Shown here piece by piece: positions 24,145 to 63,395 of a stretch of DNA of 64,000 bases; the first letter of the stretch is position 1, and each line of letters starts with the position of its first letter. The stretch lies in assembly GCA_905221605.1 (NCBI GenBank), contig CAJNDS010000209.1:1-64000 (forward strand). The letters run 5' to 3'. A model generated the notes under the pieces. The model was not told the origin of the DNA and did no database searches. It worked only from the letters and a program-made list of their open reading frames with translations. Origin of the DNA: Symbiodinium natans (Eukaryota; Sar; Dinophyceae; Suessiales; Symbiodiniaceae). The translations under genes were made by a program, and so were the position numbers.

Positions 24145-24872
24145 TCAGGGCTTCTGCCACCATGGCTTCTTTGCAGCACCGAAGCAAGTCACCGGGTAGT
24201 GCGCCATCTTGCTCGGGAGCTTCGGGACAGGAGCGACGATGTCGCCTTCCATGCTTCGCACACACTAGCCGTCACTAGCCTTTTGTGTCTTTGTCCGCGG
24301 TGCAGCAAAATGCCCCAAAACAGGCCGGGCCACCGTCGGGGCAGTGTGTCGAGGCAAGGCTGTCCGCACTCGCATCGCACCTGGGCAGGCGTCTTGGGAT
24401 CCCACACTTTCAGGGGGCCTGATGGGTTTAGGAGCAGCTCCTGGAAAGGTACGAGTACTTCGACGTCTAGAGCATCTCATCAGCTTAGGCTGAAGAATCC
24501 GCAGTTTGCTCACAGCTCTGAGACCCCCCACTCGCAGCCTTCCTTCTTGGTGCAGGCCGACTTGCTGCGCAGCTCGCAGGTCTCCTCTTTCTTCTGGTAC
24601 CTTGATGGAGGCTAGGATCATGTGATCGCAGTTGCTTCAATGCCCTGCTGCATGCTTCACCTCAACCTTTCATTCTACCACGGACTTAGGCCTGAGCCTG
24701 CATAGGCACTAAACGACGATACATGACATCCTACAGCCCTTCCCTCCCCAAATCCCAAACCCCACTCTGTAATCAACCCCCATAAACCTGTGTCCGAGCC
24801 CTGCACTGGACGGACCGGCATCTCTTCTCTCGGGTGCACAGGGCTTTGCAGGCGGCCAAGCTGGGGATGCCT
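24145..24872 (-). CDS. Large modular gene: terminal half-module (PAN-like, PSI-like, KKPWW-stop)
   Basis: Four conserved exon blocks appear in transcription order. A PAN-like motif is at 24785-24872 (SLAACKALCTREKRCRSVQC). A PSI-like Cys motif is at 24526-24601 (EETCELRSKSACTKKEGCEW). A Cys exon is at 24290-24395 (RCDASADSLASTHCPDGG then CFGAFCC). An exon at 24145-24254 holds KLPSKMAHYPVTCFGAAKKP and WWQKP followed by TGA. The same blocks occur at 34.3-35.2 and 41.1-41.9 kb, where KKPWWxQPG continues straight into a Thr-rich linker. Here the frame stops, so I read this as the C-terminus of the whole protein. Introns between the blocks are 120-190 bp. The protein is presumably extracellular, with disulphide-bonded modules. 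Confidence 0.65.
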
Positions 24873-25219
24873 CCGCGCTGGGTATTCAGGGGTGCTTTCT
24901 TTCCCTCCGGCACAGCTGGGGCGAATTTTTTAGAAATTGGAGTTCATCTGCACGGCGTGGGGCAGAGTTGACAGAGGGTTTAGGACTTACAGGGCTTAGC
25001 CTAAAGGCTGCGCATCGACCCGTCCTACACGGCAGGCGAGGCTTCAAACGCAGGTTCGGGTGCTAAAGGGGCTGAAGGTCCCCCCAAACTCGCAGACGCA
25101 TCATGTCTGGGCATAGGGTCAGGCCGGTTGAGGGCATCATGGCGCTGCGATCCCGCCTTCCTCATGCGCGCCAAACCTTGAACCCTAACCTATCAATTGG
25201 GATGCTCCCCCTTGTGCTG

Positions 25220-25283
25220 CCAGTCCTTAGTAGGAATTGATTAGAGTACCACCTATTATGATCCCTATGAAGGACTGTTAGTA
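25220..25283. mobile_element. MITE-like element, family 2 second copy
   Basis: CAGTCCTTAGTAGGA at the left and TCCCTATGAAGGACTGTTAG at the right are inverted repeats related to the ends of the element at 2524-2620 (AACAGTCCTTAATAGG). About 64 bp with no coding content. It lies between the terminal half-module and module 1. Confidence 0.5.
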
Positions 25284-25640
25284 TAAGGATGAACATCCCA
25301 ACCTATACCCCGAAAGCCTTGACGGTACATGACCACTGCGCGACAACAACTCCACGCGCTCGGGGGGGGGGGGGTGTTACGCCGTTCTCACTCCGACCAT
25401 CGGCCAGAAAAGAACCACCAAGTTCAATTTGGGAAGTGTTGGGAAAGCAAAACACACAATTTCTGCGGCTTAGGGGCCTTGGGGCTCATTTGGGGTTAAT
25501 GTTGACTTCGCGTTAATAAATCCCCCCCCCCCCCCGGTTGATCAATCTTTTCGGCCAGGGGCCTCCTCAATTGCATTCGCCTAAATCCTGGTAGGATTTT
25601 CTATTAGTTTTAGGTTTATGCCACTGCAAAAGAGAGTGTC

Positions 25641-25771
25641 TGCAGCCAGCAAGCTTTAAACTCCCCCCTTAAACTTATGAGTTTAAGCAACCTGGAGCAT
25701 CTCCCTGCAGCCAGCAAGCTCTAAACTCCCCCCCTTAAACTTATAAGCTTAAGCAACCTGGAACATCTCCC
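25641..25771. repeat. Tandem duplication, two 65-bp units
   Basis: TGCAGCCAGCAAGCTTTAAA through CAACCTGGAGCATCTCCC (25641-25705) is repeated at 25706-25771 with few differences. Poly-A and poly-G runs follow. It lies in the spacer or intron between the last LamG exon of module 1 and the terminal half-module. Confidence 0.9.
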
Positions 25772-26070
25772 TAAAAAAAAAGAGGGGGTGATTTTATAAT
25801 TGTGGGGGGGCGAGATTATTGTGTTCCGGCCCCGGGAAATTATAATTGTAGCGGGAACCGGCAATGTAAAGCCAACATTAGGGTGGTTCGGGGGCGAATT
25901 TGGAATGAGGGGATCATTCGGCAGTGGCCTTTGTGGGCGGAGATCGTGTCCGAAGAGCAGCGGAGCTCCTGAGGAGTTGACCACGCCACTTCCTTAGTCT
26001 GGGGCTTTGTGGGTTTAAGCCGCTTTTGAAGCCAAAACCTACTTTCTCTCACAACCTACAAGAAATTGGT

Positions 26071-26622
26071 TCACGCGGACCCGGGATTCAGATGTAGATT
26101 TGGGGTTGAGGCCTGTAGACGCGTCATAAGCACCCAGAGTGTTGAGCAGTTCCTTTTGCACCAGAAAATCACAAGACTTCCACTGGAGCTCACCCTGCAA
26201 CCCTGCGAGAACGCATGGCTGAGAATCTCGGTCTCATTGCTTGTACCGTAGCTTTGCTTATGGCAAAGCTTGGAAGCTTGCAAGGATTTTGGGGCTTCGA
26301 GTGTGACTTCCACGGCTTCAGCATCATAACGTCGGTGGCTGTTCTTACGAAGCCGGGCATCTTGAAGGCCCTGAGTACAAGTCATTAGCCTCCTCGACCG
26401 AACCCGGTTTTGTTGGACACAGTACTTTCTGCACTTTGCATCGGCTGGTGCTGTTTCTGCATCCTGTTTGGAGCGAAGCAGGGAGTACGCTTGGAATTTC
26501 ACTAGCCGTTGAGACCCAAATCGCGGCTCGAGCCGCAGCAGGGCTTCGGTTCGGGATTGACGGCTAAAGAATGTATACGACGGGCCTGCACTGAAGTTGC
26601 TGTTGCTGAGAGCCGAATACAA
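26071..26622 (-). CDS. Unidentified open frame between module 1 and terminal half-module
   Basis: A 180-codon minus-strand frame of ordinary composition (for example RFGSQRLVKFQAYSLLRSKQ and DAEAVEVTLEAPKSLQASKL). It has no counterpart in the equivalent intervals of modules 2 and 3 (about 35.2-35.7 and 41.9-43.1 kb). That argues against a conserved exon and for intron or inserted sequence. No family recognised. Confidence 0.2.
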   Translation of the reverse strand: MYSALSNSNFSAGPSYTFFSRQSRTEALLRLEPRFGSQRLVKFQAYSLLRSKQDAETAPADAKCRKYCVQQNRVRSRRLMTCTQGLQDARLRKNSHRRYDAEAVEVTLEAPKSLQASKLCHKQSYGTSNETEILSHAFSQGCRVSSSGSLVIFWCKRNCSTLWVLMTRLQASTPNLHLNPGSA

Positions 26623-26794
26623 CGTCTACAGTGCTGCCCAGGCATTCTGGCCAGTCAGCTGGGCTTTTGACATGTCCTACAGCTATAGTCTTCCCTCCCT
26701 AATGCTTTCAACGCCCAAGCCTAAACTTCAAACCCCCAAACTTTGAAGCCCTAGGCCGCCTAGGCCCTGATGGCGAAGTGCCAGCTCCTAAGTG

Positions 26795-29700
26795 CAGGCC
26801 ATGGGCGTGGGAGAACTGAGCCACAAGGTGGTCCAAATCCGCATCTGTCAGCGCCTCAGTGTACGGGACTGGCGAGGTGGGCTTGAATCAATGAAGTCCT
26901 GCGGGCAAGATGATGAAGGCCGCTGAAACCATCTTGACTTTGTCTGCATAAGAAAGAAAGATTCAAATAAACAAACAAACACACGCACTTACACACTCGC
27001 ACAGTTCCACACTTAGACACTTAGACAGACACTTACAAACTGACACTGACACACTGACACACTGACACACTGACACACTGACACACTTACACACTTACAC
27101 AGTTGCTTGGCTTGGCATGCTCATGAGACGAACTGCGACAGTACAAGACTGTGGGCGGGGGGGGGGGGGAATGTATGCATGAAGATGATGTGAACAGTTT
27201 AGTCCCAACTTGTGCCACACACCGGGACTGGCACAAGCGAAAAACGGATGAAATGATACCAGCAAGGGGTGTGGGCGTGGCCCCCTGTTGCACCAGACAC
27301 CGGGAATGATGCAACATGAATGAAAGGAAAGATATATGAGGTCCCCAGCAGCGCCCATGAGCGGATGGAGCGCAGGTACGTTTGCATGGGGTGGGGGAGG
27401 GGAGACGACCGGGACCCCCCCCTCCCCAGTCCCCTGGTCCCCTGCACGAAATTCACCATGTCCAGGTGTTGCCACACACAGACTCCTTTCTCATCACGCC
27501 TGGTCTTTGGCGCACAATCCTTTCTCGACTCAACTCGTCTGATTCGGTGCTGAGTGAGCACTCCAGTCAAAGTGTGGCCTCAGAGCTGGAAGCGTCCGGG
27601 ATCAAACTTCTTCAATATGGCTGACTGCTGCTCCGTGACACTGTTGTCTATCAAAGCGGCTAGCACGTTAGCAATGGCAGGTGCGAACTGGAAGCCAGAT
27701 CCCGAAAAGCCGCACGCGAAAACGATGGAGGGGTCTGCTGGATGACGGCCAAGAATCATATGCAGGTCTGGGGTACACTGGTACAGGCACCGCATGTAGC
27801 CGACATACTGCTCCGCATTTAAGCTCGGCATTTTCTTGCGCACAAAGTCCTGAACCCTTTCCCAGGCAAACGTGTCCAATTCAAATTGTTGCTCGCTGTT
27901 CAACTCCTTGCGGATGTGCGGCAGCTTGTCCACAGCAGCCTTGCCACCGGAAGACACTTGAAACTCGTCGGTGTTTAGCAACGGGCCCTGCCGATGGAAA
28001 CCAATCTTCACTCCACCCGATGGCACGCCTGGATGTGTTACATGTGGCGTGGTGTAGAAATATTCACAACCACCATCCTTGCCACGGCCCTTGTAACCAG
28101 CTTCACTCCAAGTGAACACCGGAAAGACGTCCCAGTCATAGGAGGGTGCACCAGGCCTAGGGCCAAGCTCAACGGTTTGCTCATTCGACACGATCATGGG
28201 AACGCCTGGAAGCCCTGCATTCGACAGAACCTGGTTCGTCCATGGCCCCGCGGTGATGATCAGATTGGAAAACGAGAAACGTCCTCCTCCTTTGGTCTGC
28301 ACCTCTTTCTTGTCGCGATCAATGTGCACCACAGTGTCCTCGACAATGTCTGCTCCGGATCGGGAGGCTCTCCAGTGAAGAGCAGCAAGACAGTTGTTTA
28401 CCAGCATGGTGAAGGCAACGGGCATGAAGATCAAACTCTCACCAGGATCCAACTTCAACTGTGGAAAACGTTGCTCCGCTTCACTCGCTGATAGAACTTC
28501 ATGCTGCGCCTCAGGTAGATCTCCCAACTCCCTTCTGACACAAACTCCAATGTTTTCAATCTGCGCTTTGGGACCCCCATCGCAGCCCCAGTGCAATGAT
28601 AAAAATGAGCATCTTCAACTTCTAGATCAGGCGATCTGCTCGCCTCTGCTTGGTACTCCTCCTGCAACTGCTTCCAGTACTTGCTGGATTCCAATCCCAT
28701 GCGCAACAGAACCGGATCTTCCATCCGAAAATGGCTCGCTCGAGTCACACCCCAAGATCCTCGAATAGGGTGAGCCGCATCAATCAGGATGACTTTCCTT
28801 CCCCTTGCTGCTAGCGCAGCAGCGGTGCTTAAGCCCATGACACCTCCACCCACCACGAGGGTTGGTGCTTGGCTTCTCTTATAGAAATACCAGCCAGCAA
28901 GGCCCAAACCTCCCAGGCCTCCCAGGCCTCCCAGCCGAAGCTTGGTGCGCAAGCTCATGGGCCGAAGTGGTGCCAAAAGAAGGTCACGGGGTGTGTCAGT
29001 GACACTCCAAGTTCGGACTTTTCTAGAACCTAGACATACATCGCAATCGGCTACCCAACCCTAGAACCCAAGAATGCACATTGCAATCTTTGTCAATGAG
29101 CATGCCACCTCTCAACCTTGCTGCCTGAGCGAATGGACACGCTTGCTCTGGTTGCTGCCGATGGCTGTCCATTAGTCGAGAAGAGAGGGGGGGGGATCGC
29201 AATCCTTTCTGGGCCACGGACGCCATCCCAGAGCTGCACCTGGGCTTGGGCTTTGGGGGGACCCAAGGTGGAGTACTGCATGCTGAACGACCAGTGCCTT
29301 CTGAACAACCAATGCTGGGACTCCGCTGCTTTATGCGCTTCTTGCGCTTAGGTACTGTATTCTACAAGGAATGCCTGCAGCCACAACTCGAGCCACAAAC
29401 CGAACGCCAATGGCCAAGTCTTAAAAGAGGCTCCAACTAACATCAACCTGATGCAGACTCCCCTCCCACCCCCCTGCCCACCCTAAACCGATCTGCATCA
29501 TGTCTCTCAGTCCACGCCCGGTGGCTCTTACGACCCCTGGCAAAACGACTTGTCACGCAAACTGGCCGCCGAGGAGCCGCATGGATGTCGGCTACAACAC
29601 CATCCCTCTGGGCGCCCGGGACGAAACCCAGATGAACCGGCCTCTCACCTGGTGACGGTAGCAACAGCAACCATAATCATGATATAGCAAGACCATACGG

Positions 29701-31715
29701 GGGATTACGCAAATAAGGGACCCCTTAATATGGACCCCCAAATAGCAGTCCTTTATAATACGAACCCAGTAAGGTACCCCCCCCCCCCCCAATTTGGGAA
29801 ACCCCCGTACAAGCAATAGGAGCAGTAAGAATAATAATGAAAGGTGCTGAGAGTGAGCAAGTGAGTGAGAGAGCGGTATCCACACTGGACTGGGAAGTGT
29901 GGCGCCGTGCCTAACGCACTTTCGGGGGTCCGAACACGTCATCGCCCCCTCGTGGAGATCTCAAATGGCTGGCCCCGGGCTCGGCAAACGTCATTGCCCG
30001 AATGAAGATCTAACGAGAGTACTAGGTACAGAAGCTCTATAGTGCAATAAAGTAGTAGGAGGACTGAAAGCTATGTTTCTTTTAGTCATAATTGTCTAGA
30101 TGTTGCCCGCTGGCGGTTTGGCACTGGGGTTCGAGGCAATTTCAGGCTGGGCGCTAGCTGATAGCTAGGAGAAATCCCAGGCGTCCTGACAAGTGCGAGA
30201 CATGAGAAGGAAAACTCCTGCCAGCAACGCCGACGCAACACGTCGTTGGGCAATTAACGCCGCCAGATGTGAGGCTGCCAAGTTACTTTTGCGCATTGCA
30301 GCATCAGACCACAATGGGTCCTCAGTTGCTTGGTCTGTCAGGCCTACCACTTTGCAGGTCCCCAGGCCAAGCAAGTTGGTTTGTGCCCAGCCGCTGTGCT
30401 GGCGGTGGCCTCGCAGCACACTTGACCATTCACCGCCAGCTCGAGCTTCTCGCCTTTGCCGTCGTAGCGGACCTTTGCTGTTTAGGGTTTGCTCGGCGCT
30501 GTGTCTGAGTCTAATAGCTGAGCAACTGGGCGCGACTGCCCTGTGAACCAGCACATCATCAACTCGCCAGCAGCACTACAGCCACAGGGCGACATCCCAA
30601 TTCACCAGCTAGTCCGACAGGACAGGGGCCCGAAAATTGATGGACTTTCTGCTGGGCCCTCATCCCTATGTGGCCAAACAACAGCTACAAGGTGAACCAG
30701 GTGACGGCCACTGATGCCCATTCATCTGCGTAGGAAGAGTTGCAGAAGCATCCGATAACGTTCTCCGACTTCCAGTCCTGAAGCCCATAGAGCTCAAACT
30801 TCAAGCAGGCTTCCATAATCATGTCACTAAGCTAGGCCAGCCCAGGAGGAGGCAAGTCAGGACCCGAACATTCGAACAGCGTTTCATCACGAAATGATGA
30901 GTCCTTGAAGGCTCGTAGCCGGAACTGTTTGCCTGGTGTTGCCACGAGCTCCCACGCCCCATGCTCATCTGGGACGCCTGAACCAAGGACTCACGCGGAG
31001 ACACTGCTTCGGGGTGAGATCAGAGCTTCAATGCAAACTGCATAGCACTTATAATATCGCGCGCCAATCATAAGTCCCAGCCTAACGACCAGCTGCCTTC
31101 CTTCAGCATCAGGGTCTCTTCGTTGGCATTGCCACTCCCGACGAGCTTCACGTAAGCGAGCGCCTGCAGTTGCAGATGTAGGGCGACAAAGAGAAATCGC
31201 ATGTCGCCGTTAAGAGTGAGGACTGGCCCAATGTCTGAGGTGACCGGTGAAAAGTCTACAAAAGGCGCTGATGAAGCCTCCTTTTTTCCCCCGAAACCTT
31301 AAACAAGAAGTTGTGCAAGGCAGGCTGCTGTGAACTCGACGGACTTGGTCTTTCCCAGCGAAAGGCCCGTCTTTCCATCCAGGCGATAGGAATTTCCTCG
31401 AGGTTCACTTGTTCTCAACTCTTGGGTTTAAGTGCCCAGCCCTGGCTGAACTGAGACACGCTACAAACTCAAAGCAGAAGGCGGGGGACTGGAGTTTAAC
31501 TTCATCGCGTCCCCAACGACAAGATCAAACAAGCTGTTGAAGAACTCCTCAAGAACAGACTGAAACTTGATTGCCGAGAAACGACCCCTTTCCACCTTCC
31601 ATTGCCTGACTCAACCTCAAGCCCCCCCAAAACCCAAGCGCCAAGACACCGCCTTCCGTGGATGCTGCCTTGCCGTCGAACTTCATCACTCCGCCGGCGG
31701 AGCCCCGGTTTGTCA
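26795..31715 (-). CDS. Large modular gene, module 1: laminin-G-like domain in nine exons
   Basis: Exon blocks in transcription order: 31660-31715 (GGVMKFDG), 31315-31400 (YRLDGKTGLSLGKTKSVEFT), 31093-31170 (AYVKLVGSGNANEETLMLKE), 30904-30980 (HGAWELVATPGKQFRLRAFK), 30692-30777 (DWKSENVIGCFCNSSYADEW), 30370-30470 (VRYDGKGEKLELAVNGQVCC), 29570-29652 (VHLGFVPGAQRDGVVADI), 29205-29255 (QVQLWDGVRGPERI) and 26795-26868 (EALTDADLDHLVAQFS). Together they give the order FDG, FT...VKL, W-x5-VTW, YDGxGxxLxLxVNG, W, LTDADL. This is the LamG/concanavalin-A-like jellyroll pattern, suggesting sugar or protein binding outside the cell. All nine blocks recur in modules 2 and 3. The last intron is about 2.3 kb instead of about 0.45 kb because it holds the FAD oxidase sequence. 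Confidence 0.65.
27580..28958 (-). pseudogene. Sarcosine-oxidase-like FAD amine oxidase, intronless, one frameshift
   Basis: It starts at ATG 28958 with a hydrophobic Gly/Leu-rich N-terminus (GGLGGLGGLGLAGWYFYKR, a possible membrane anchor). The Rossmann FAD motif follows (TLVVGGGVMGLSTAAALAAR ... ILID), then SWGVTRASHFR. The C-terminal half has LIITAGPWTNQVL, the RCLYQCTPDLHMILG segment with the Cys that binds flavin covalently in monomeric sarcosine oxidases, and ACGFSGSGFQFAPAIA, ending at TGA 27580. Length (about 460 codons) fits the family, which oxidises N-methyl or cyclic secondary amines. The frame breaks at the C-run 28574-28578: one fewer G on the coding strand than needed. This is either real inactivation or a homopolymer sequencing error. 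The C-terminus FQL is not a classical peroxisomal signal. There are no introns; it is nested in an intron of the large gene, same strand. Confidence 0.8.
29039..29060 (-). other. Weak candidate spliced-leader relic upstream of the FAD oxidase
   Basis: The minus strand reads GGTTGG then GTAGCCGATTGCGATG. This matches the relic at 23580-23601 over GTAGCC-ATTGCG with a one-base insertion but lacks the 3' GGCTCAAG. It is 81 nt upstream of the ATG at 28958. It could be a decayed leader or chance. Confidence 0.2.
30778..30903 (-). other. Intron with GA donor, module 1
   Basis: A 126-nt intron: exon ...TTCAAG^GACTCA and ...TTCAG^GACTGG exon. The phase-0 junction that joins RLRAFK to DWKSENVIGC requires a GA donor. 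AGGACT is duplicated at both ends. The homologous introns in modules 2 and 3 show the same boundary. Confidence 0.6.
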
Positions 31716-32424
31716 CCTTATTTACGGGTTCTTCCTCTTCAGGCAGACGTTCAAGGGGCGAGAGTCGCCCTCATCACAAGGGCAGCATGTAGCAAAGCCC
31801 AAGTGTAGAGACATTGCTCTTGTATATCGTGTTTGGGCTCACTCCATCTGGGGTCCTAAGTGGCAAACGTTTCCTACAGCCATTCTGTGGGATGGCTTTT
31901 TGTCGACCCCTAGGCGCGTGGCCGCGCTTGCCGCCATCGATCGCTTTTGGACTTCTGGGCTCGCGACATGCTGTGGACGTGCTCGCGAAATTGTCATCGC
32001 GTATTTCTGGGACCGCGCAAGTGAAACTGTCGGCTCTCGCGGATGTCCGCTTGCGAAATGCGATACTCATCACTTTTGGACGTCTGGGCACGGGTAATGT
32101 TCTTTGCTTCTCTCGGTCTGCCGTGCTCTTGGAAAGTTTGCATGAAGCCTAATCCTTAAAGGGCTTTGGGCAAGCTCTTGGCGTGCTAGGATCTTCCTCA
32201 AGTGCCAATGGGGATCGTCTGCAGCGCTTGGACTGGTCTCGGCAGACATGCCCTTAAACCATTAGAATGTTCTTTCATGTCCCCGGTCTCTGACTGTTTG
32301 GGCTCTACACTGGCAGACGATCCTCGCCTGAAGCACAGAAATGCAACTAGATAACGATTGAGTTTCAGTTTTCTCGCTGGGAAGAGCCTGACGCTGTGAT
32401 CTTCACAGAATCTACATAAGCTCT

Positions 32425-34090
32425 TTGAGGCCATGGCAGTCGAGATGTCCCCCTTTACGCGTACAGCCTGGATGCCGGCCACAGACCTGAGCTCCGGAGT
32501 CTCTAGGCGTCGGTAACTTTTGAGATATGTTGGGCATCTTGGATTTGGGTGCAACACTCTCGTGCGCTGCCGTGCTTTGATGTGAGTACTGTTAGGTCCC
32601 GGACCCACAAGCTGACACCCTGGGCCTTTCATGCACAGAAATAAGCAAGCCTGGGCATCAAATCAACCAAGCTGCTTCTTGCAGCACACTTGTCCTTAGC
32701 ACTAGGGAACACAAGGGTATGGTCTGCAAAGGTCTGGCATCTCTCGACAGCTTCCCCATTCCTTCGGACCACACTGGAAGCCTCTGCCAGGGAAGCCTTC
32801 ACAACTCAATTTGCGATCAACACAAGGACCTTGATTGTAACACAAGGCGTCGTGTGCAATTGCTGCCGCATGCTGGCGCGTCAGCGACGGGTACCTCGTC
32901 TGCGTGGCACTGGATGCCTGGGCCCAGCGTGGGATGGAGCCCCAGACTGTTGAACCGCAAATTAAACCCCCTGCCCACTTCGAACCGCAAACGATGGAGA
33001 CTACTGAACCCTCGACCGCTAACCCACGACTCAGGTCCCTTCTTGCCAATCGCAAGAGTCCTCCGCAGCTCTGGCAGTCTGCAGCGGCCGGGCAAAGCAC
33101 ACGTTTCGCCGCCGGCTCGGATGCTGCGTCGCAGGCGTCCCGACTCCTCGGATGCTTCTGGAGCAGCTTTAGGAATTACAGGCCTAGCCTAGCATTCTTC
33201 GATGGGGAGGCGGCAGCCCTCGCTGTTAAGCCCATAAGCCCATACTTGTGTGCAAAAGACCTGTTGCTTCTGAAGCGATTCGAAGCCACAGCAGTACCTA
33301 GGAAACCTCCATTCCAGCAGCCAGGAAGCACCACCTTTCCTGTGGCAGGCACCTGCATTGGCAGAAGGCATGGAACACAGATGCATCACTCTGCACCTAT
33401 CTTGGAAGGCACAGCCCCCCCCACCCCACCTGGCAAGTCACAGACCGCTTCTCAATAACCTCCACCAAGCCACAGCTGTCGTCGCACTCCTGCGCACACA
33501 GGCACCTCAACTGTTCCTTCTGGCAGTCTTCTGACTAGCCTTTGTGGCGTCGGCGCTGTGCGCTTGATCTCCTATCGGTCCACATCGGAACACTCAGCCC
33601 CTGGGCCAACTCTAGTACAAAGTCTGCAGCTTCAACCCTAGCAACATGCGCTGGGCAAGGACCCTCCTTCGTCTCATCCCAGCTGATGGAGATCCAGGAG
33701 GCCTCGTAGCAGCACTCTTCCGCCTCACGCGGCCGCAACGATGCAAGACCAGCCCCAAGTGCTCAAAGGCAGACATGCTTCACACCCATGGCCCATGGCC
33801 CATCAGTTCCAGCAAGATTGCTGCTCACCAGTCAGCCGGCACATCTACCAGCACCTCTGACCCCCCGTCTTGGACTGCCCAGAATTACAGCACCCGCGAC
33901 CCCAAGCCCTCAAACGCACATAAGCCCCAAACCCAAACCCTCTCCCGAAACCCAATTCCCCTGAATCCCAGTCATAGATGTTTCTTTGTGGCTCTAAAGC
34001 CGACATCCAGTTGCCTTGCACTGGTCCATCTTGCATGGCTCGGTTCTGTCGGCCGGCTTGGCCACAAAGCCTTCCATGTCAAAGCGTGGC
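32425..34090 (-). CDS. Large modular gene, module 1: TSP1-like and Cys-rich exons
   Basis: Blocks in transcription order: 34005-34090 (GFVAKPADRTEPCKMDQCKA); 33650-33728 (AEECCYEASWISISWDETKE, the Trp pair of a TSP1-like domain); 33428-33496 (QECDDSCGLVEVIEKRSVTC, the CxxxCG...RSVTC core); 33320-33355 (PATGKVVLPGC, the closing strand); 33050-33110 (LCPAAADCQSCGG); 32850-32935 (GPGIQCHADEVPVADAPACG then SNCTRR); 32425-32495 (AGIQAVRVKGDI). Each has a partner in modules 2 and 3. TSP1 repeats are extracellular adhesion modules. Here one domain is split over three exons and the first strand has a doubled Cys. A plus-strand frame at 32904-33458 is the shadow of these exons. Confidence 0.6.
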
Positions 34091-34334
34091 TTCGAGCTCG
34101 GCGCAGGGACTGCTCTCAACTCAAAGCAAAGTTTACTTAGTGTTGGAGTTGGCTGTAGGAGCTCAACGAGAAAGGGCAATGCCTTCTACTTCATATTCCA
34201 GGCAGGCAGGTGCAAGTACAACGCCCCGCTCCTTGCATTGCCCGCGAGTTGCCATTGCTGCTAGGCGCTTCATCATAGGGATCCATCTGAAGTTCAGCGA
34301 ATGTCACCCCCCCGAGCCCCCACCCCCTACAGTT

Positions 34335-35185
34335 TCTGCGCCTGAAGGACATGTGAAGGAATCGCAGGATGCCCGGACCGTCGTGGTGGTGCTTGTGGAG
34401 GTGCTCGTAACAGCGGGTGTGGTTGTGGCTCGGACGCCGGGTTGCTCCCACCAAGGCTTCTTTGGAACTCCGGCGCACGTCACGGGGTAGTGCGCCAGCT
34501 CGCCCGGCAGCTTCGTGGTAGGTGCGATAAGGTTTCCTCAGCTTATCTCTCCTTTGTGGGGGTGGGGTAAAGGGGTGGAGGGGGGGGGCACCTAATTAGC
34601 ACCGAGGGAGAAGGAACCCCGCAAGCAGCCCACCCTTTTGATAAGCCCTGGCGCCACTGGGGCAGTGGGTCGAGGCGAGGCTGCTGACAGATTCGTCGCA
34701 CCTCGGTGCTGAACATGATTTGCCCCGCACTGTGTGCCGAAATTGTGGGTTTGAGATGGCTTGAGCTTGAACTCACACCCTGAGTCCCCGGCGTGCATCC
34801 CTCCTTTTTTGTGCAGGCCTCAGCGCTGCGCAGATCGCAGGTCTGGTTCTGGTACCTCGGCAAGGGGGTGGCACGCGCGATCGGTCGCACACTGGTCGAT
34901 TCGATCGGTTGTTGAAGGAATTTTGCCACAGTCGCGTTGAAGGTTTGGGGCGGCTGGTGCGAAAGAACCCTGCACGCAAGCAGCGCAGCCCCATCATATC
35001 CCACCAACGTGACCGACCGACACCACGAACAAGCTCCCAACATCAAGCACCCGATTGTAGAAGCATGACACGATCATCGCCAGCAACCCTGCTGAGTGAC
35101 GCACTGAACCGACCTGCAGCGCTTCTCCTGGGTGCAGAGGGCTCTACATGCCGCCAGGCTCGCCACACCTGCCCAGAGGGGGAAT
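34335..35185 (-). CDS. Large modular gene, module 1: PAN-like, PSI-like and Thr-rich linker
   Basis: Blocks in transcription order: 35101-35185 (GVASLAACRALCTQEKRC then RSVQC, a PAN/apple-like Cys pattern); 34777-34860 (YQNQTCDLRSAEACTKKEGC, PSI-like); 34651-34712 (RCDESVSSLASTHCPSG); 34335-34530 (KLPGELAHYPVTCAGVPKKP, WWEQPGV, a Thr/Ser-rich linker TTTPAVTSTSTSTTTT, then ASCDSFTCPSG). The Thr-rich stretch is the kind usually O-glycosylated as a spacer in secreted proteins. It follows the last LamG exon of module 2 (35715) by only about 530 bp with no visible start region, which favours one continuous gene. Confidence 0.6.
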
Positions 35186-35714
35186 GATTCTTCACTCAGC
35201 TTGTGCGCCTTTGGGCGGTTGAGGATGTTGAGGCTGGGGTGGAGTGGTCCTGCGATGTGCCTGCGCGCTGTTTTTCCTGGCCCCATAACAACAATTTTGG
35301 GCTGCATTGCAGAAGGCGACGCTACGCGGGCAAGGGTCATGTGACGTAGATCGACCAACTGCAATGACGACAGCGATGGGTCCGATAGGGATAGCGAGTC
35401 TTCCGAGAGCTTCCGGCACTCCTGGCCCTCTTGCCTGTGTGGGTCGAGATGATGTCGTCCGGGCAATGGAGATTCTGGACCTTTGACCACGTTGCGGCCT
35501 CATAGTGCTGGGGCAATCAGAGTAGAATGTACAGGTCAAGCAACACAAAAAAATAGTAAGTAAACCCCCACCTTAACCTCTTCTTTGAAGGGCTTCCTAC
35601 GTTGGCTGTCTCTCATGATTATCTGAATAAAGCTCCTGTGAATCTCGTTGGCTTCGGCAATCTGAAGAATGAGACAGCGAAAGACAGGAAGAAACAACAG
35701 CCTTCATCTTGATC

Positions 35715-38320: not shown

Positions 38321-38565
38321 GTTGGGTGCGAAAAACAAAAACCTGTGCCGTAGTCTGCGGTATGGATCTTACTTGACAGGACTGCCTAGCAGGCCGGTCA
38401 CCTGACCGGACGTACATCAGACCCCAACCCTCCAAGGTCATAAGTGTAAGATTTGAAGACGCTGCCCGAGCCCTTCCACTCAAAACACCCCTGCTTGAAT
38501 GGGCGACGTTTACTTCTTTAAAAAGGGCCAAGGAGATTGCAACGTCGGAACTCCACTTTCCGAGG

Positions 38566-40470: not shown

Positions 40471-41089
40471 ATGGTGCGAGTTCAGAATCAGTGGAATGAC
40501 TCTTATGCCAGGTCTTGGCGCAAAACACACCAGAAGTATGGACCTGAGTGGCCGAAGTGACGTCCGATCCACTGACCCCTGTCCCCCCGTACTCTGAACC
40601 TGCTACGACACTTCATGCACCTTGCCGTGAGGGCCCGTAAGCCCGAAGACCTAAGCCCCAAACCCGAAGGCTGAAGTGCCCGAACCCAAGCCCTAAGCCC
40701 TAAGCTCTAAGCCCTACAGTAAGCCCCAAAGCCCCAAGCCCCGATCCCTGCTGATCCAACATGCAAGGACTTGCCCTATCCGAAAGCGATGATCCCTCAA
40801 GTCCTGGAAAAATGAAGGTAGGGTCCCGGCCCTTCAAACAAGCCCTCGCCCGTGCCGACTCCAAGCCCGTGCGAGGTGGCGTGTGTCTATTAGAGATAGG
40901 TACATCTAAAAAGAATCATGTGTATTTTTATGCCTAGTAGTCCAGTAACCTGGCAAATTAAAGGTTAACCTTTGGGATTATAAGGGCATTATACTACCCC
41001 AAAATGGCTGAAGGTTACCTACTCTACTACTAGGTACGTAAGTATACACAGACACTGCCAGCATTGCCAAGTAAGCCCCACTGCTCCCA

Positions 41090-53100: not shown

Positions 53101-56100
53101 GAGAGACACACACACATTCAAGATCATGCAGGTCGTACTCTGAGCAGCATCCCATACACTTAGTGTAGCTCCAACTGTCGTGCTGGGCATGTCGTCTGTC
53201 TGCCTCTCTTCAAGCCAGAGACGCTGCGATAAAGACATGCTCACAACAAACCCCTCAGCCTTGTCGCAGCATTCCGCAGTGGTGCACATGGCACCTGGCA
53301 TCATTGGAGTTATGCGAGAATTGAGTGAAGAACCGGGAAGATGCTTTCCCTGTCACCTCGAACAAACCTGACGGGAAGACAATAGCACTGCACACTTGCC
53401 CAAGCTTCAAGCCCGTATAGGGTTAAGGGTTCCCTACACCCTTAGTTCGTTACTGTAGCGGCCGGTAACTTTAACAAAATGAAAAAGGTGCTCTGGGCGA
53501 TGGTGCTGGCAACTTTTATCCTCGCGTGTTCAACCACTTGCGCCCTGGATGTTTGACAGCAGCTTGAGGATTGAGGCTTGAGTTTGCTGTTGGGGTCCAG
53601 AGGGGTAGGTGTTTGAAATCGTGGGCTCACTGTGATTCTATGTTAAGGGGCATAATGGGCATATTAATATATTATGGGTTTAGGACTTGGAGCTTCTGGT
53701 TCCGGGCCTGTGCGGATGGACGAACGTTAAAGGAAGATGAGCTCCGGCTTCAGAGAGCTGAGAGCTTACGCAGCCGAACAACTGCCTTGGCAGGAGGCGG
53801 GAACCAAGTTTTTCAGCACATAGCCCCGGCTGCAGTCCGACTCCTGGGCAAGGAGGTCGAACTCATGCCCAAATCCTGAAACCCTTCTTGCGACCCCAGA
53901 CGGCTACAAAACTGCTGCAGAACCCTGAGCCTCAGAATGAACCTCAAACCCTGAGCGCATGGGGGCGCTTGTAGGCAGGCATACATACTTGAGAAGCAAG
54001 CCGCGGCGGCCGAAATCTGCGCTCATGCCAGTGTGAGCACACATGAGCAGACAGGAATACTCGACCAACCGTGTCGGGTTGTCTAGAGATTATGTATATA
54101 GTCTACGTGGTCAGGTATCTGGTGTCTCCCCTTTTTGTGGTATGGGCCGGCAGGGAGGTCTGGCCTCGCAGATGCCGCACTTGGGCGTCTCCTCGCACTT
54201 GGTGCGCGCCGTGCTTGGCTTCACTTCCCTGCAAAGGCTCTCGTCCTCCAAACAGGCGCTGGCTCAGGACTTTCAGAAGTGATGGCAACTCAGTGATCGC
54301 ACCTCCATGATGATGAAGGATTATGCCGATGCTAGAGGGCATGTTGTTATAGGGCTGCTAATCTCCAAAACAAGAAAAGTCACAGCCATGAACGCATGGA
54401 GGATGGTAGACTTGAACTGGCTCAAGCCTCCAAATCCCCCGAGGCCTCGGGCCGGAGGTGTATGACGGTTGTTCGAAATTGCTTCACGGCAAAACGACCA
54501 TTCTTCGCGAAAAGCAATTTGTCTTTCGCGGGCCCATCGCGGACTTTCGCGGAGCCTATTTTACACCCGTATTAGTTTCAGCACAAACAGTACTAACACA
54601 AAACTTCGCGAAAGCGTGATTTGTCTTTCGCGGGCCCATCGCGGACTTTCGCAGACCCTCATTTCCATCATCTGATGGTCGCCCCAGTATAACTCGAAGA
54701 CAAGGGGGGTTTTGAACAACCCTCGTATAGGTTGTCAGAACAGGCACCCCCCTCCAAATCCTCCCCACACCCAAAGCCCTTTTTTGGACCCCTTTTTTTG
54801 GGGAAACCGTGCTCCGCAAGCGGACGGTTCCGCAGGACCAGAGGCAGTTGAACCCCCCCTCCCAGCAGACCACCCCCCCCCCCCCACCCCCCACCCACCC
54901 CCCACCCCCCCCCCCCCCCCACCCACCCCCCCCCCCACCCCCCCCACCCCCCCACCCCCCCCCCCCCCACCCCCCCCACACCCCCCCCCCCCCCTCTTCT
55001 CCCCCCACCCCACCTCCCCCCCCCCCCCCCCCCCCCCCCCCCTCCCCACCCTGCCAAAGAGTCGCCTTAAACCTTAAGGGGCCTGGCTCCGAACCCTAAA
55101 CCAAAAAAAACCCTCAACCCCAAAGCGTGAACCTTGAGCCCTAAACTAACCCTCAACCCCAAACCATAAACCATAAACCCGGAACCCTCAACCCTCAACC
55201 CTCAACCCAACCCTTATTGCTTGGGGTCCAGCGACTTGGGCGCTGCGGAATCACCATGCTCACGCGGATGCGCTGGGCCGGGCCGAGGCGGGTCGCGTAG
55301 CGTTAAAATTACCTGCACAGGTGTGAGTTCAAAAGCCGACACCAGTGTCCAGCTTCAAGTTGCTGTCGAGGTCCCAGCACTCAAGCTTCCGAGTCTCGTA
55401 CCTCAGATGACAAGATACTTCCGAACCTATTCTCATCAGACGCCGCAGCGCCATCCCTGGACTCCTTGGGCAACTTCACGAGACTGGGGAAGTATGGAAA
55501 CCTTCAACCTCAAGTACCTCAAAGTCCGTCTGTGGTGCTACCCTGACCGCCTGAACCCAACCCTCCCGAAAAAAGCGGCGCTGAACTCCTGAACTCCTCA
55601 AATCTCTGTGCTTTCAGGGTGCTCTGCCGCAAGGCCACATTGCATGTCGCAGCTCGCCTGCGGCCATGCGTCCTGGGCGCAGGGCTGATGGAAAGGGGTC
55701 GCCCCTCAAGAGATGCAGGGGGTCTAGATGGAGGGTTCCACGGTCAGGGTGTTGGTGGGATGCAGAACAAGCTTAAGCTTCAACTTTGGTGACCTCAGGT
55801 GTCAGGGAAAGGCTTCTTCCGAACGCAGCCCTTTGCACGTCACTGTCCAAGTGGGCTGGAAGCCCCTTTAACTCCGAGCACGCCGAAACGCGGCCAGGCA
55901 ACATACTTCCAAGCAGGATTGGTCGGCTCGGCGCAGCACTCCTCCACACCCCATCTAAGTCGGGAGTGCGTTAACTATATCGAGGCACCTTCCGAACTCC
56001 CCACCCAAAAAACAACACTACACGTCATCATGAACCATGATGGGAAGAACAGCTTGGAAGCAAAGTTGTAGGAGATCGCTGCCTCCTGCGAGAATCCTGT

Positions 56101-56820
56101 GAGTTGCTGCTGGTTCGGCTTGGGGACCTTGCCATTCTTGGCAGAGCAGTCATCCTCTTTGGAGGCTACAATGTAAAATTCCATTGATAAGGGAACCTAG
56201 ACCTAGAATTTAAGAAAGGGCAAAGGGTACCACTGGGCTACTAGTACCCAGCAGCAGTGAGAGGCGATAGAAATTCTGGGCCTCTTTGGCACCCTGAAGT
56301 GCAAGGATTGTAGAGAACCAACGGCCCATAAATCAAGACCAGTCCGCCCATATGTCATATGTGAAGACCCCATGTGGCAGAGAGTATATACCCGAAGTTT
56401 ACTGTGTTACATCCAAGCCTCCTTTGGCCCTAATGCCCCAAGCCGAAAGTAGCGCCTGCTTCAGCCAAGGTGCAGTGGTGCTGTTGCCTCGGCTGGGCAG
56501 GCCCGGTGCATGTGGGGTAGATCTATGGACCCCCTGTTCGAGACCCAAAACAACTCTACGGAATAGACTATGTGACTATGTATGGAAACCCTCCAAAGTC
56601 TCCAGAGTTTGGATCGCCCCCTCCCCCCCCCGTCCCCCGCACACGCAATTCTGCACTCCTCAGCACCCGAAGGAAGAGGTGGCAAGCGCCTAATGTTGCT
56701 GACAGGTTTAGTTATTGCTTTCACACCTGCACAGCCACGCGAACCACACTGCAGGGCTGGTTCATCGCAAGTAGAAGTGGGCATCCAAGCCACAGGTGAA
56801 GTACCAGCACCTGGTACAGC
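50137..56820 (-). CDS. Large modular gene: N-terminal TSP1-like repeat region, multiple exons
   Basis: Cys/Trp exon blocks in transcription order: about 56720-56800 (STCDEPALQCGSRGCAGV); 56080-56165 (ASKEDDCSAKNGKVPKPN); 55870-55950 (EECCAEPTNPAWKYVAWPR) with WTVTCKGLRSEE near 55820; 55615-55685 (DAWPQASCDMQCGLAAEHPE); 54150-54265 (ACLEDESLCREVKPSTARTK then CEETPKCGICEARPPC); 53790-53870 (QESDCSRGYVLKNLVPASCQ); 53000-53050 (VCSAEDCPEGSTVRFPA); 52341-52450 (CCSATKWKTGDWSNTGKCST then ECGEVEK, a clear TSP1 core); 51990-52090 (NRTVTCEARCTQHGQLEGAD); 50960-51050 (GNATYDCPEDCGQGG); 50137-50222 (ERPVTCNEPDTGKVVADDLC). WxxGxWSxxGxCSxxCG and RxVTC...TGKVVxxxxC are TSP1 signatures. Exon limits and the number of complete domains are uncertain. 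Confidence 0.5.
54503..54655. repeat. Direct repeat of ~51 bp, period 101 bp
   Basis: CTTCGCGAAAAGCAATTTGT continuing through TTTCGCGGGCCCATCGCGGA (54503-54553) recurs at 54604-54655 with a handful of changes. TTCGCGAAA and TTTCGCGG within it are themselves complementary. It lies in a presumed intron. Confidence 0.9.
54850..55045. repeat. Poly-C / CCCCCCA tract (poly-G on the transcribed strand)
   Basis: About 195 bases of C-runs interrupted by single A or T. The Pro/His and Gly-rich frames across it are artefacts. On the minus (sense) strand it is nearly pure G, inside a presumed intron. The exact length should be treated as uncertain in any assembly. Confidence 0.95.
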
Positions 56821-60470: not shown

Positions 60471-61019
60471 TCAGCTTGGACAGGCCAGGTGAAGCATGTA
60501 CCAGCTTCATGGGGTAAGGGCTCTGGACACTGGGATCTTGGCCTGGGGAACAACATGGGTGCCAGATGGTCGAGGGCATATGGTGAAGGGGCTTCAGGGG
60601 TTGAGGGGTTGAGGGGCTGAGGCAGACTCTGCTTGTTTTGTCTCCCGCCTGGCAGGGGCCCTGGGGCTGTTGGACTGGGAAACTTGGGAAGCAGGAGGGT
60701 GGCCCGCTCCAGGGTCATGTCTCCCCAATGCTCCGAATCATCTATGTGGCCGAAACCTGCTAAACCGACTTCCGTAAACCTGGTCTGCTGTGCTCCATAG
60801 TCTTTCTTGCCCGGTAGCTATACTGCCGTCCGATGTCGGGCAGCAGCTCCTGCGACGTGAACCAACAGTGCACTCACAGGCGCTACAACCGCTGCAGGCA
60901 TGCTGTCGCATCCTGACAACATGCCGTCATTCAGGACAGTATATACTAGCAGATCCACACAGCAGCAGGCTTGGCATCAGGTTCCTTCTCGAGCATGGTC
61001 CGGATACCTGAAAAATAGA

Positions 61020-62400
61020 GCAGCTTTGTACGGAACATGACAGGAGTTGTGGCCGAGCTGCTGTCGATCATCGGCTTGAGGTAGGACCGCGTGCTGTTGC
61101 TCGCATTTGTGAGCCGAAGCACTGATACCTGGTGGGAGAGATGGTCTCAAAATCTCTGGACAAGGCATGTTCAGCCCAAACACCACCAGCACAAACCAAA
61201 GACGTACAAAGACCACACCTTCCGTGGGGCAAAGTCACGTTCAGCAAACAAACGCACAAACAGGACCGCAACATTCAACAAACGTGAAAGGTAGCACATA
61301 TCGATGCCACTTTCAGCAAACAAAATCACCAACCGCACGGCCCGAGTATCACTGCCCAACACCGTCAACTGCAAGTTCAACATTAGAACCACCCTCGCTC
61401 AGCAAATAAACAGAACACAAGGAGCAAACGAGCCAACGACGAAGCCACAAGTGATCGCATGACAGGAATACCGCGGCCAAAGGCCGTAAGTAAATTCGAC
61501 ATGAAAGATCAGCTTCAACAAATGCTGAAGCCCGATCAAGCATACGACGCTACAAATCATGAGAAGTCACCAGCTGCAGGGCTCGAGTGCCACTGCTCGA
61601 CGCCGTTAATATTACAGCAGAAGATAACTTGATCCAGAAAATCTCAGGGATGGTAATGGTTTAAGATAACTTGACCCAAAAACTCTTGGGGACCAGGGCT
61701 TGCGAGTTGTAATGTTGGAAGACTGCTTGACCCAAAAACCTTAAGGATCCGGGCTTGCTACGTGCAGTGCCAGTGTCAACATACGAATTTTCTAAATGAA
61801 CTAGACGGGTTAAACTGGAGGTTTTGCGGCTTCTCAGACCTCGAATCGAAAACTGTGCTTTTCACTAATTTAGATGTTGTATTTGATTTAGTTAAACCAA
61901 TTAAGCGATTTAATTTAACTAGCTCTACTCTTATTTCGCTGATTCAAGTGTCGAACCCTCCAGGCGAAGTGTGGTGTCGCTGTTGCACTACATACAAACA
62001 TACGGGGCAGACACTCTGGTCCATACATTAGTGCTAGACGCACATACAGGAACGACGTCTGAATTCAACTTTAGAAAGAGCCACAGTCAGCAAGCGCAAG
62101 AGATTCTTTCTGGAAACGCCTAAATGCTGACGTTTGCACGTGGGTAGGACTCTAAATTAAGGTCCCTTTTGTAGGTCCTTGTTAGAAGAAGGGTACCGTA
62201 TTATATGAGGGACTCTAAAGGGGACCCTATTCACAGAACTATCTAGGTGCAAACGGGCTTGCCTGTGGCTCGCTTGCTGTTTGTTGACCGTCCTGTTTGA
62301 TGAACGTGGCTCTGCTGTTTGTAACTTTGGGGTGCCGTTTGCTGACCATTCTTTGTTGAATGTGGCCCTGGTTTGTTGAACGTGCCTACTCCTTACCTTC
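61020..62400. repeat. Spacer with opposed CATTCAACAAAC repeats and a ~50-bp tandem repeat
   Basis: Variants of CACATTCAACAAACGTG/CGTTCAGCAAACAAA recur at about 61240-61530 on the plus strand and, reversed (TTTGTTGAACGTG), at about 62255-62390. ACTTGACCCAAAAACTCTTG with following GGACCAGGGCTTGC is present about three times at 61627-61770 in degenerate form. The plus-strand frame at 61762-62031 has no recognisable motif. No gene is seen. Confidence 0.55.
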
Positions 62401-63333
62401 CAAACCTTCCCGCCTCCAGCGCATCGAGATCCAAGGGCAGCCTTGGCCCTTCATGGGCGGGCGCGAGGCCTGAAGAGGAGTATCGTGAGCACAGTCTTCG
62501 GACGTCAACACTCAAAGCTTCCCCATCTTCCCCCTCTCAACAGGGAATGAGGGAACTGGGTTCCTCGGGCCCAGAACTGATGGACTCCCGCCGAATGCGA
62601 TTCTACAAGGCGGGCTCGAACTCCACATGCTGCCAGGAGGGTGGGGTTTTTGGCTTCAGGGCTGGCTCAGCCCTGGCATGTGCTCCAAATGCGAGTACGC
62701 CCGAAGCCCTAAACCCTGTACGCCTCAGGTTCCAGTCATAGCTACGATTCTCGTCCCCACCCTTCTTGGCCTGATCGGGCTGCCTCCCCCTAATAGCCTT
62801 TTGCCTTAATCACAGACCCTGCATAAGGACATCACAGAAGTTAGGGACTCTCTGCTATGTCTAGGACTATGCTTGTATTATTCTCATCTCTGTCAATCTT
62901 ACTACTGTTTCTAGCGAGTGCAGTGGGCCCTGACTCGGGGCCCAAGCGGGCGGAGGCCGCCAGGGAGGTCGCAGCCCCGAGCTTCCTTCCGGAGTTTGGG
63001 AGATTGCACGAGGGTTACTAGGTTTAAAAAGGGGTTTGCAAGGCTTATAAGGGTTTGTAAGGGCTACAAGGTTTCGCCACCCGCACTGCACACACCATCG
63101 GGCGTTTGGCTTATATGGTTTGAGGGTTGCATCTGGGATGATCTGAGAGGAGCCGGGTTGAGGGGCTTCAGGGCTCAGGGATTGAACAGGGGGATCTGGA
63201 CCCGGCACATGACTGTCGCAAGTAATGCTCCACAGCCAAGGCTTACCCAGATCCCCAGCTTTCAACCAAAGTTTCCGGCGAACGCACAAAAAGTTTATGG
63301 TGCATGTGGGGGTCTCGTCCCCCCCAGGCCCAC

Positions 63334-63395
63334 CTGGTCTCTGCTTGAGGCAGACAGGCGATGACAAAAACGCCCAGCAGGGCGAATTGCTTCAT
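63334..63395 (-). CDS. Signal-peptide first exon (candidate 5' end of the large secreted gene)
   Basis: ATG at 63395 encodes MKQFALLGVFVIACLPQAET, a textbook signal peptide: one Lys, a hydrophobic core, then a polar region suitable for cleavage near PQA/ET. The frame then meets ACCAG^GTGGGC, giving an exon end at 63334 with a canonical GT donor. Downstream exons on the same strand are secreted-type Cys-rich modules, so it could be the first exon of that gene. The link is positional only, with about 3 kb of unresolved DNA before the next protein-like exon. Confidence 0.45.

Follow-up and report, generated by a model that had tools for sequence, protein, structure and literature searches.

A putative 39 kb gene for a secreted, multi-module PAN/TSP1/LamG-like protein in Symbiodinium natans

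The minus strand of the 64,000-nucleotide stretch analysed (the window) probably carries, between 63.4 and 24.1 kb, a single gene of ~39 kb for a secreted multivalent adhesin or coat protein; from the sequence, we estimate the probability of this reading at about 0.7. Its most certain part is a phase-continuous chain of 70 exons extending from 49,224 to a TGA at 24,145 (4,338 nt, 1,445 aa), with no stop codon before the terminal TGA. This chain encodes a Thr-rich linker, a six-Cys region, TSP1, a second six-Cys region and LamG, followed by two units in which PAN precedes the same series, and finally by a lone PAN and the stop. The chain would be spliced to an N-terminal part that contributes more TSP1 repeats and a signal peptide that is cleaved off, and the full protein would then reach very roughly 2,000–2,600 aa (Table 1).

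Table 1. Features of the window, in the 5' to 3' order of the minus strand.
Feature	Position	Strand	Evidence or remark
Candidate first coding exon: ATG and signal peptide MKQFALLGVFVIACLPQAET..., donor AG|GTGGGC	63334..63395	-	hydrophobic core
Draft six-Cys/TSP1-like exons	54165..56154	-	splice model and cysteine pattern; 0 Pfam families
N-terminal six-Cys and TSP1 repeat, draft exons 52501, 52079, 51917, 51257	51165..52501	-	TSP1_ADAMTS 39.1 bits
Second N-terminal TSP1-type repeat, draft hand-joined exons including 50218-50141	50141..51257	-	TSP1_ADAMTS 23.5 bits
Module C: Thr-rich linker, six-Cys, TSP1, six-Cys, LamG; 19 exons, e5-e23	43117..49224	-	
Putative C-to-B junction intron, 220 bp, GC-AG, phase 0	42897..43116	-	
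Module B: PAN, KKPWW and Thr-rich linker, six-Cys, TSP1, six-Cys, LamG; 23 exons	35729..42896	-	
Putative B-to-A junction intron, 230 bp, GC-AG, phase 0	35499..35728	-	
Module A: 23 exons as in B; 2,367 bp intron before last LamG exon	26807..35498	-	
FAD-dependent oxidoreductase ORF (DAO family), intronless, in module A intron	27580..28958	-	DAO 50.0 + 78.7 bits
Putative A-to-H junction intron, 814 bp, GC-AG, phase 0	25993..26806	-	
Half-module H: PAN and KKPWW, five exons, terminal TGA 24147-24145	24145..25992	-	
Next downstream ORF: intronless, 1,012 aa	20556..23594	-	0 Pfam families

Exon chain and module structure

The chain comprises 23 exon families (e1–e23), 19 of which (e5–e23) are present in modules C, B and A; the four PAN families (e1–e4) are present in B, A and the terminal half-module H, which also has e5. 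The first-pass annotation had described exon blocks recurring in the same order across the modules and a half-set. Comparison of the minus-strand stop-to-stop ORFs with each other confirmed this order, with collinear matches linking the half-set and all three modules at E values down to 3e-17, and with DNA-level repeats consistent with them. The 43–49 kb module, thought to be devoid of the PAN/PSI set, does lack PAN, but the six-Cys exons labelled PSI-like are present at 48,886–48,616. The half-set contains the in-frame stop attributed to it (TGA, then TAA), but extends over 25,992–24,145 rather than 24.1–24.9 kb. The first PAN exon starts at 42,896 in B, 35,498 in A and 25,992 in H. For the start of the first exon of module C (49,224), the other copies offer no equivalent, and e13 of this module is a weak exon.

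The 69 donors comprise 38 GC, 18 GT and 13 GA sites; the GC/GA share (51/69) may be set beside the 25–74% given for Symbiodiniaceae in the relevant part of a review (PMC11453091). Exon ends were picked on the basis of AG|G and of phase agreement between copies, so the presence of AG|G at 70/70 exons and the lack of phase breaks are built in, whereas equal exon lengths and the substitution pattern are independent of these selection rules. The final ends of e12, e19 and others were fixed by comparing all three module copies. For six short exon families, each set against a background of 94–190 segments from 44 kb, 17 of 18 comparisons yielded no stop-free AG|G...G[TCA] segment with an equally high score, those of the homologous copies aside.

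Divergence between copies

Exon length was identical in every copy for 17 of the 23 families. Five of the remaining six differed by multiples of three, and e5, which is cut in module C and terminated by the stop in H, differed more. On same-length exons only, dN and dS were 0.26 and 1.50 for C–B (278 codons), 0.32 and 1.35 for C–A (255 codons), 0.22 and 0.87 for B–A (358 codons) and 0.28 and 1.37 for A–H (56 codons). The weakest signal was that of B–H (dN 0.36, dS 0.74; 78 codons), with differences by codon position of 26, 22 and 28. Thus, dN was lower than dS in all five pairs of copies, with dN/dS values of 0.18–0.25 among C, B and A, which are ~62–67% identical over the exons compared. Introns were unrelated in 58 of 59 pairs, a single pair surpassing its 20 shuffles by the required margin; pairs with any intron of at least 1,200 bp were excluded from this comparison. 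The unit was most likely multiplied by old in-gene duplications and later kept by purifying selection. A 23-exon unit multiplied within a gene, with intron positions kept and intron sequence almost wholly turned over, would be useful for studies of intron and module evolution in alveolates.

Domain identity

In a Pfam scan for which some queries had provisional exon ends, PAN_1 (PF00024, cut-off 21.4 bits) matched above the cut-off in H (27.5 bits) and A (23.1 bits) and below it in B (20.3 bits), and TSP1_ADAMTS (cut-off 23.8 bits) reached its highest score for hand-joined exons at 52.5–51.2 kb, upstream of the modules. All the module TSP1 scores fell below this cut-off (B 20.6, A 19.1 and C 20.4 bits), the second N-terminal repeat was marginally below it, and one of the five stretches matching TSP1_ADAMTS (PF19030/PF00090) passes. 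Laminin_G_3 (PF13385, cut-off 27.6 bits) scored 21.9 bits in A and 19.9 bits in C, both below the cut-off, and had no match in B. Early draft models had given weak PAN only, with TSP1 and LamG not found by Pfam. The TSP1/LamG/PAN/PSI labels of the first-pass annotation, for which an HMM search on the spliced model had been proposed as a check, are therefore sustained for PAN in two of three copies and for one upstream TSP1, but Laminin_G_3, module TSP1 and PSI do not pass.

With E 6e-4 and a probability of 29%, profile comparison by hhalign aligned the module LamG, end motif included, with this genome's own LamG domains; the TSP1 control for this comparison gave E 0.48 and a probability of 0.1%. 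The module LamG is likely to be a divergent LamG or concanavalin A-like member. Module TSP1 aligned with TSP1 of the same genome with E 0.001 and a probability of 21%. The six-Cys module, which occurs twice per unit, the 43–49 kb unit included, retains the same six cysteines (C, C, C, C, CC) in 6/6 copies and is left here without a family name. The PSI label was rejected, as none of three six-Cys/TSP1/six-Cys stretches matched any Pfam family at E ≤10, and kinship with TSP1 was rejected on the hhalign result (E 0.05, probability 1%).

Searches of solved structures with the LamG profile and with the six-Cys/TSP1 unit profile, again with some provisional exon ends, gave no match up to E 10, and an Rfam scan of the whole window gave no family. 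Neither vWA nor LCCL domains were matched in the stretches scanned, which took in part of the N-terminal region. The 1,445-aa part contains 96 cysteines; with a best 19-aa hydropathy window of ~1.2, it shows neither a membrane span nor a hydrophobic tail.

N-terminal region

The suggestion that the protein is secreted agrees with the strong signal peptide lying at 63,395, exactly the upper limit originally proposed for the gene. Its core (3.1) was the highest among 12 candidates in 64.0–49.3 kb. Over 64 kb, five candidates on the minus strand and four on the plus strand had a core of at least 2.8 and a net positive start; without the charge filter, 53,117 (core 2.96) and 61,560 (core 2.88) were also retained. 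The model is poor over 63.3–56 kb, with no Pfam match in the tested stretch. The exon structure over 63.4–49.3 kb and the link of the 63,395 exon downstream are a draft, far less certain than the model for 49–24 kb.

One gene or several

The smallest gap between LamG and the next PAN had been put at 0.53 kb, but the first PAN exon had been missed. The gaps are 220, 230 and 814 bp, are in phase 0 on both sides at 3/3 junctions, and are read here as introns. No in-frame ATG was found in the open stretch upstream of the first PAN exon in B, A or H, all three of which conserve this exon; it therefore needs an upstream partner. From the read-through stop after the last LamG exon to the next PAN acceptor, there are 98 bp for B–A, 178 bp for C–B and 715 bp for A–H. 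In Amphidinium, the smallest spacer parts given in the published account sum to 178 bp, with the signal-peptide exon and intron extra (PMC2488372), so that the C–B and A–H junctions are less telling than B–A. These junctions favour the single large gene proposed in the first-pass annotation, to which 63.4–49.3 kb may belong.

It seems improbable that the modules are separate trans-spliced genes that were duplicated head to tail. Arrays and short spacers are described as usual in dinoflagellates in parts of two sources (PMC2488372, PMC11453091), the published minimum equals the C-to-B distance, and closely spaced genes occur locally, the next ORF beginning ~550 bp past the stop. Module B could have an internal start in a signal-peptide-like ORF at 42,814, directly behind its first PAN exon. 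However, such a start would skip the conserved PAN exon, the 98 bp of B–A is short, the best signal candidate before A (35,616, core 2.66) reaches its core only behind 15 residues, most of them charged or polar, and the best before H has a core of 1.9; the final "gene" would consist of a PAN domain alone. The single gene is favoured over tandem genes. Unlikely, but deserving of more weight, is a division into two genes, an N-terminal TSP1 gene at ~63.4–49.9 kb and a PAN/TSP1/LamG gene from ~49.2 kb, the 70-exon chain remaining unchanged. The 50,141–49,224 join has no conserved counterpart, the splice model varies between runs, and the starts at 53,117, which is signal-like without the charge filter, and 61,560 lower the odds of a single gene and raise those of two. 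Nevertheless, net-positive candidates with a core of at least 2.8 are absent from the minus strand between 63,395 and 42,814, and TSP1_ADAMTS and the six-Cys pattern are common to the N-terminal part and the modules.

Two further readings have still lower probabilities. A single translation product might be cut by a protease into PAN-TSP1-LamG proteins, which would be compatible with a single gene but is highly unlikely. Copies within polyproteins are typically near-identical, whereas identity among C, B and A is only ~62–67% and unit C starts differently. In favour of cleavage, the units share an equal plan, and tandem-unit polyproteins (Rubisco and other arrays) are recorded for dinoflagellates in a section of PMC11453091. 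We give very little credence to a decayed gene or a misassembly caused by recent module collapse or duplication: the frame break in the nested FAD ORF indicates that local errors or decay exist, but about one third of residues differ among C, B and A, with the low dN/dS values and unrelated introns reported above, and the 70-exon chain is free of stops up to its terminal TGA. These readings overlap and their odds do not sum to one.

Nested and neighbouring ORFs and genome context

To the earlier description of the locus can be added an unrelated FAD ORF lying between 29,222 and 26,854, where conserved LamG exons of module A flank it. One frame change separates its first part (DAO 50.0 bits) from its second (78.7 bits). 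Its inclusion as an extra domain of the giant protein was rejected, given its own ATG and stop, its lack of introns and its position between two conserved LamG exons. No parental copy was found in the genome, where only a 41% fragment occurs elsewhere. The next downstream ORF bounds the giant gene. A possible spliced-leader relic at the 5' end of this ORF corresponds to one match against a chance expectation of 2.93, its position at the ORF start being the sole point in its favour.

The genome contains 205 exact spliced-leader copies (reversed control, 0), which, together with the GC/GA donors, point to a dinoflagellate nuclear gene, AG|G being a selection rule. All 13 genomic matches to the module B LamG unit, and all five to its six-Cys/TSP1 unit, lie in the window; these searches were run for each exon separately with E 0.001 as the threshold and missed some sister-module exons, so diverged or finely split relatives could escape. 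Genome-wide Pfam searches for TSP_1 (89 matches) and Laminin_G_3 (21 matches) gave none in the window, as would be expected of domains divided among short exons, although this is not proof.

Proposed product and relationship to known systems

Judged solely from its domain names, the product is most likely to be a secreted protein that binds glycans, either an adhesin or a component of the coat. It would be exported via the ER, its cysteines forming small disulfide-knotted domains and its Thr-rich linkers probably serving as O-glycosylated spacers. With no membrane span in the 1,445-aa part, it may be released or retained in the cell coat, where repeated PAN and LamG could bind glycans or partner proteins at high avidity. 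A more speculative and unlikely proposal is that the product is a giant filament or coat protein outside the cell, restricted to this lineage, with tandem PAN-TSP1-LamG units, multiplied within one gene, that polymerise or bridge surface glycans; if true, this would be an undescribed architecture, possibly central to sticking to hosts, prey or the cell's own coat. Literature searches among open-licence PubMed Central papers turned up no PAN-TSP1-LamG architecture. To our knowledge, dinoflagellate surface molecules, including those of coral symbionts, are poorly known. Genes of this kind may be fragmented by gene predictors, because most donors are GC or GA, and a curated exon-exact model provides a testable gene.

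The adhesins of apicomplexans and chromerids (TRAP, MIC and kin) are likewise alveolate and secreted, with TSP1 and/or apple/PAN domains and Thr/Ser-rich stretches. The relevant sections of PMC4501334 and PMC6176090 record chromerid and Amoebophrya proteins that combine TSP1 and vWA, and mucin-like Thr/Ser stretches in chromerids. The likeness described is one of domain types. The vWA, TSP1 and transmembrane tail of a TRAP/MIC2-type gliding adhesin do not appear together here, there being no vWA in the stretches scanned and no such tail in the 1,445 aa, and LamG is added. LCCL-lectin adhesive-like proteins (LAPs) are also large alveolate lectin-type assemblies with LamG, and their modules mostly have carbohydrate-binding features (PMC11285972); LAPs/CCp are defined by LCCL, which was absent here from the scanned stretches. 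LAP orthologues are reported to be absent from dinoflagellates, and LAP-like proteins are reported from Symbiodiniaceae. Mdl1p of the Tetrahymena mucocyst docking complex is another alveolate secretory-pathway protein with a signal sequence and LamG, but has one LamG and a predicted transmembrane helix, and the portion of the report describing it mentions neither TSP1 nor PAN (PMC9159632). The best TSP1 repeat resembles the ADAMTS-type repeats of animals (39.1 bits with TSP1_ADAMTS), but no protease domain was present in the stretches scanned, and the PAN and LamG partners differ. Finally, dinoflagellate luciferase and the Rubisco polyprotein also have homologous units within one ORF, as outlined in part of PMC11453091, whereas the units described here are multi-domain and old, each with 18–22 introns.

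Modular organization of the candidate gene

Translated self-comparison of the window yielded ordered minus-strand matches between three modules (C, B and A) and a terminal half-module (H), with E values down to 3e-17, confirming the three homologous modules and half-set, in the same order, described in the first-pass annotation. Exons were drafted with a purpose-written splice model, and their ends were then set by comparing module copies. The resulting chain, from 49,224 to 24,145, contains 70 exons and 4,338 coding nt, with no phase breaks and a single terminal TGA. Its introns range from 61 to 2,367 bp (median 206 bp); the donors are GC (38), GT (18) and GA (13), and all 70 acceptors are AG|G. 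As AG|G and equal phase served as selection rules for exons, neither the acceptor count nor the phase continuity constitutes independent evidence.

Independent support for the chain was provided by exon lengths, the codon-position pattern, dN/dS, unrelated introns and a background test on short exons. Exon length was identical across all copies in 17 of the 23 exon families, and differed by multiples of three in five of the other six. The third codon position differed most in all five module pairs; the excess was clear in four of them and marginal in B-H (26, 22 and 28 differences at the three positions). Over same-length exons only, dN/dS was about 0.18 (C-B), 0.23 (C-A), 0.25 (B-A), 0.21 (A-H) and 0.48 (B-H). 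The preset margin over 20 shuffled versions was reached by one of 59 intron pairs. The background test covered six short exon families: within 44 kb, no non-homologous candidate segment scored as high as the homologous copy in 17 of the 18 pairwise comparisons, and the query and the third copy account for the counts of one or two recorded there. The sole exception was the C versus A comparison for family e13, and the e13 exon of module C is therefore weak. We consider it highly probable (about 0.87) that the chain from 49.2 to 24.1 kb is one coding sequence.

Coordinates of the modules, neighboring ORFs and repeats
Feature	Position	Strand	Remarks
Module C	49,224-43,117	-	
Module B	42,896-35,729	-	
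Module A	35,498-26,807	-	
Half-module H	25,992-24,145	-	PAN only
Signal-peptide-like ORF	42704-42814	-	Intronic, between PAN exons 1 and 2 of module B
FAD-dependent oxidoreductase ORF, DAO family	27580-28958	-	Intronless; Pfam DAO 50.0 + 78.7 bits, two parts
1,012-aa ORF	20556-23594	-	Intronless; downstream of giant gene; starts 23,594
Four ORFs, 149-395 aa	16619-20098	-	No Pfam match at E 0.01
Long C-rich tract with scattered A	54853-55051		Inside draft 5' part of giant gene
Run of 8-bp repeats, CTAAACTC	38778-38897		Within module B intron
Telomere-type repeats, GGGTTTAGGG-like	near 35.87 kb		

Domain content

In early draft gene models, a Pfam scan found no TSP1 or LamG, and PAN was weak. 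With the spliced model, PAN (H and A) and, once, TSP1 were recovered from the domain set proposed in the first-pass annotation, but LamG remained below the cut-off and the six-cysteine module was unmatched. PAN_1 scored 27.5 bits in H, 23.1 in A and 20.3 in B (cut-off 21.4). TSP1_ADAMTS (cut-off 23.8) reached 39.1 bits for the repeat at 52.5-51.2 kb and 23.5 bits in the following one, and was below the cut-off in modules B (20.6), A (19.1) and C (20.4). Laminin_G_3 (cut-off 27.6) scored 21.9 bits in A and 19.9 in C, with no match for module B. In profile-profile tests, each a single comparison of shallow alignments, the three-copy LamG profile matched LamG domains elsewhere in the genome with E 6e-4 (probability 29%; TSP1 control, E 0.48 and 0.1%), and the module TSP1 profile matched the TSP1 of the genome with E 0.001 (21%). 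These sequence comparisons provide moderate support for the putative LamG and TSP1 identities. A whole-genome Pfam search gave 89 TSP_1 and 21 Laminin_G_3 matches, none within the window, in keeping with domains divided among mostly short exons.

TSP1 is flanked in each unit by two copies of a six-cysteine module (pattern C, C, C, C, CC), which retains all six cysteines in six of six copies and has no Pfam match. It is this region that had been labeled "PSI-like", a name that we do not retain. Likewise, the 43-49 kb module, reported to lack the PAN/PSI set, does lack PAN, but contains both six-cysteine modules.

One gene or several genes

At each of the three junctions, phase 0 is found both at the end of the last LamG exon and at the beginning of the first PAN exon; the gaps are 220 (C-to-B), 230 (B-to-A) and 814 bp (A-to-H). 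The open stretch upstream from the first PAN exon extends over only 6, 6 and 21 codons and contains no Met; this exon therefore needs splicing to an earlier exon. If the modules were tandem genes, that earlier exon would have to lie between the read-through stop after LamG and the next acceptor, a distance of 98 bp (B), 178 bp (C) or 715 bp (A). The smallest 3' UTR, spacer and 5' UTR given for tandem arrays of Amphidinium in the part of PMC2488372 used here are 42, 85 and 51 bases. With these minima, the 98 bp at B-to-A could not accommodate a first exon with its intron, and the 178 bp at C-to-B would leave them almost no space.

The tandem-gene reading is kept alive at the C-to-B junction alone, by the signal-peptide-like ORF starting at 42,814, which may be an alternative start or a chance occurrence; a start here would, however, bypass the conserved first PAN exon. 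The candidate before A (35,616) has a hydrophobic core score of 2.66 but is late-placed, and that before H (25,296) scores only 1.9.

The single-gene chain can probably be extended upstream to 63.4 kb. The ATG at 63,395, which coincides exactly with the upper limit given in the first-pass annotation, opens a strong predicted signal peptide running into a donor. It has the top core score among 12 candidates between 64.0 and 49.3 kb, and is one of nine in the window, on both strands, passing the filter (core 2.8 and a net positive start); removal of the charge filter adds candidates at 61,560 and 53,117. Draft exons of the six-cysteine and TSP1 types recur from 56.2 to 50.1 kb. Confidence in the extension is lower than for the chain, because splice model quality is poor between 63.3 and 56 kb and there is no conserved copy with which to compare the 49.2 kb junction with module C.

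Genome setting and neighboring ORFs

The window is the beginning of its contig in an assembly of 759 Mb (759,417,921 bases, 2,543 contigs), and long ORFs are present upstream of 64 kb. The 21-nt dinoflagellate spliced-leader motif has 205 exact copies genome-wide, versus none for the reversed control, which identifies the genome as that of a dinoflagellate. A spliced-leader-like 15-mer with two mismatches lies exactly at the start of the 1,012-aa ORF, for which there was no Pfam match. As the number of such matches in the window does not exceed chance expectation (1 observed, 2.93 expected), only the position of the 15-mer suggests that this ORF is perhaps a retroposed gene. In module A, the intron separating the last two LamG exons (2,367 bp) contains the FAD-dependent oxidoreductase ORF, which has the same orientation as the giant gene. 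One frame change separates the two parts of this ORF, and a genome search with the second part identified only a 41% fragment elsewhere.

Proposed function and comparison with other alveolates

The signal peptide, small disulfide-rich domains, Thr-rich linkers and repeated PAN and LamG point, by domain type, to a secreted protein that would act as a multivalent binder. Such a protein would most likely be released, or retained in a coat through binding, because hydropathy analysis of the 1,445-aa part revealed no membrane span and the C-terminus is hydrophilic. TSP1/vWA proteins are known from chromerids and Amoebophrya (passages in PMC4501334 and PMC6176090), LAP-like lectin proteins from Symbiodiniaceae (a passage in PMC11285972) and a LamG protein from Tetrahymena (a passage in PMC9159632). 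TSP1, PAN and LamG, the domain types of the giant gene, are known from alveolate proteins; its exact domain order was not found among the papers listed by searches of open-licence PubMed Central articles.
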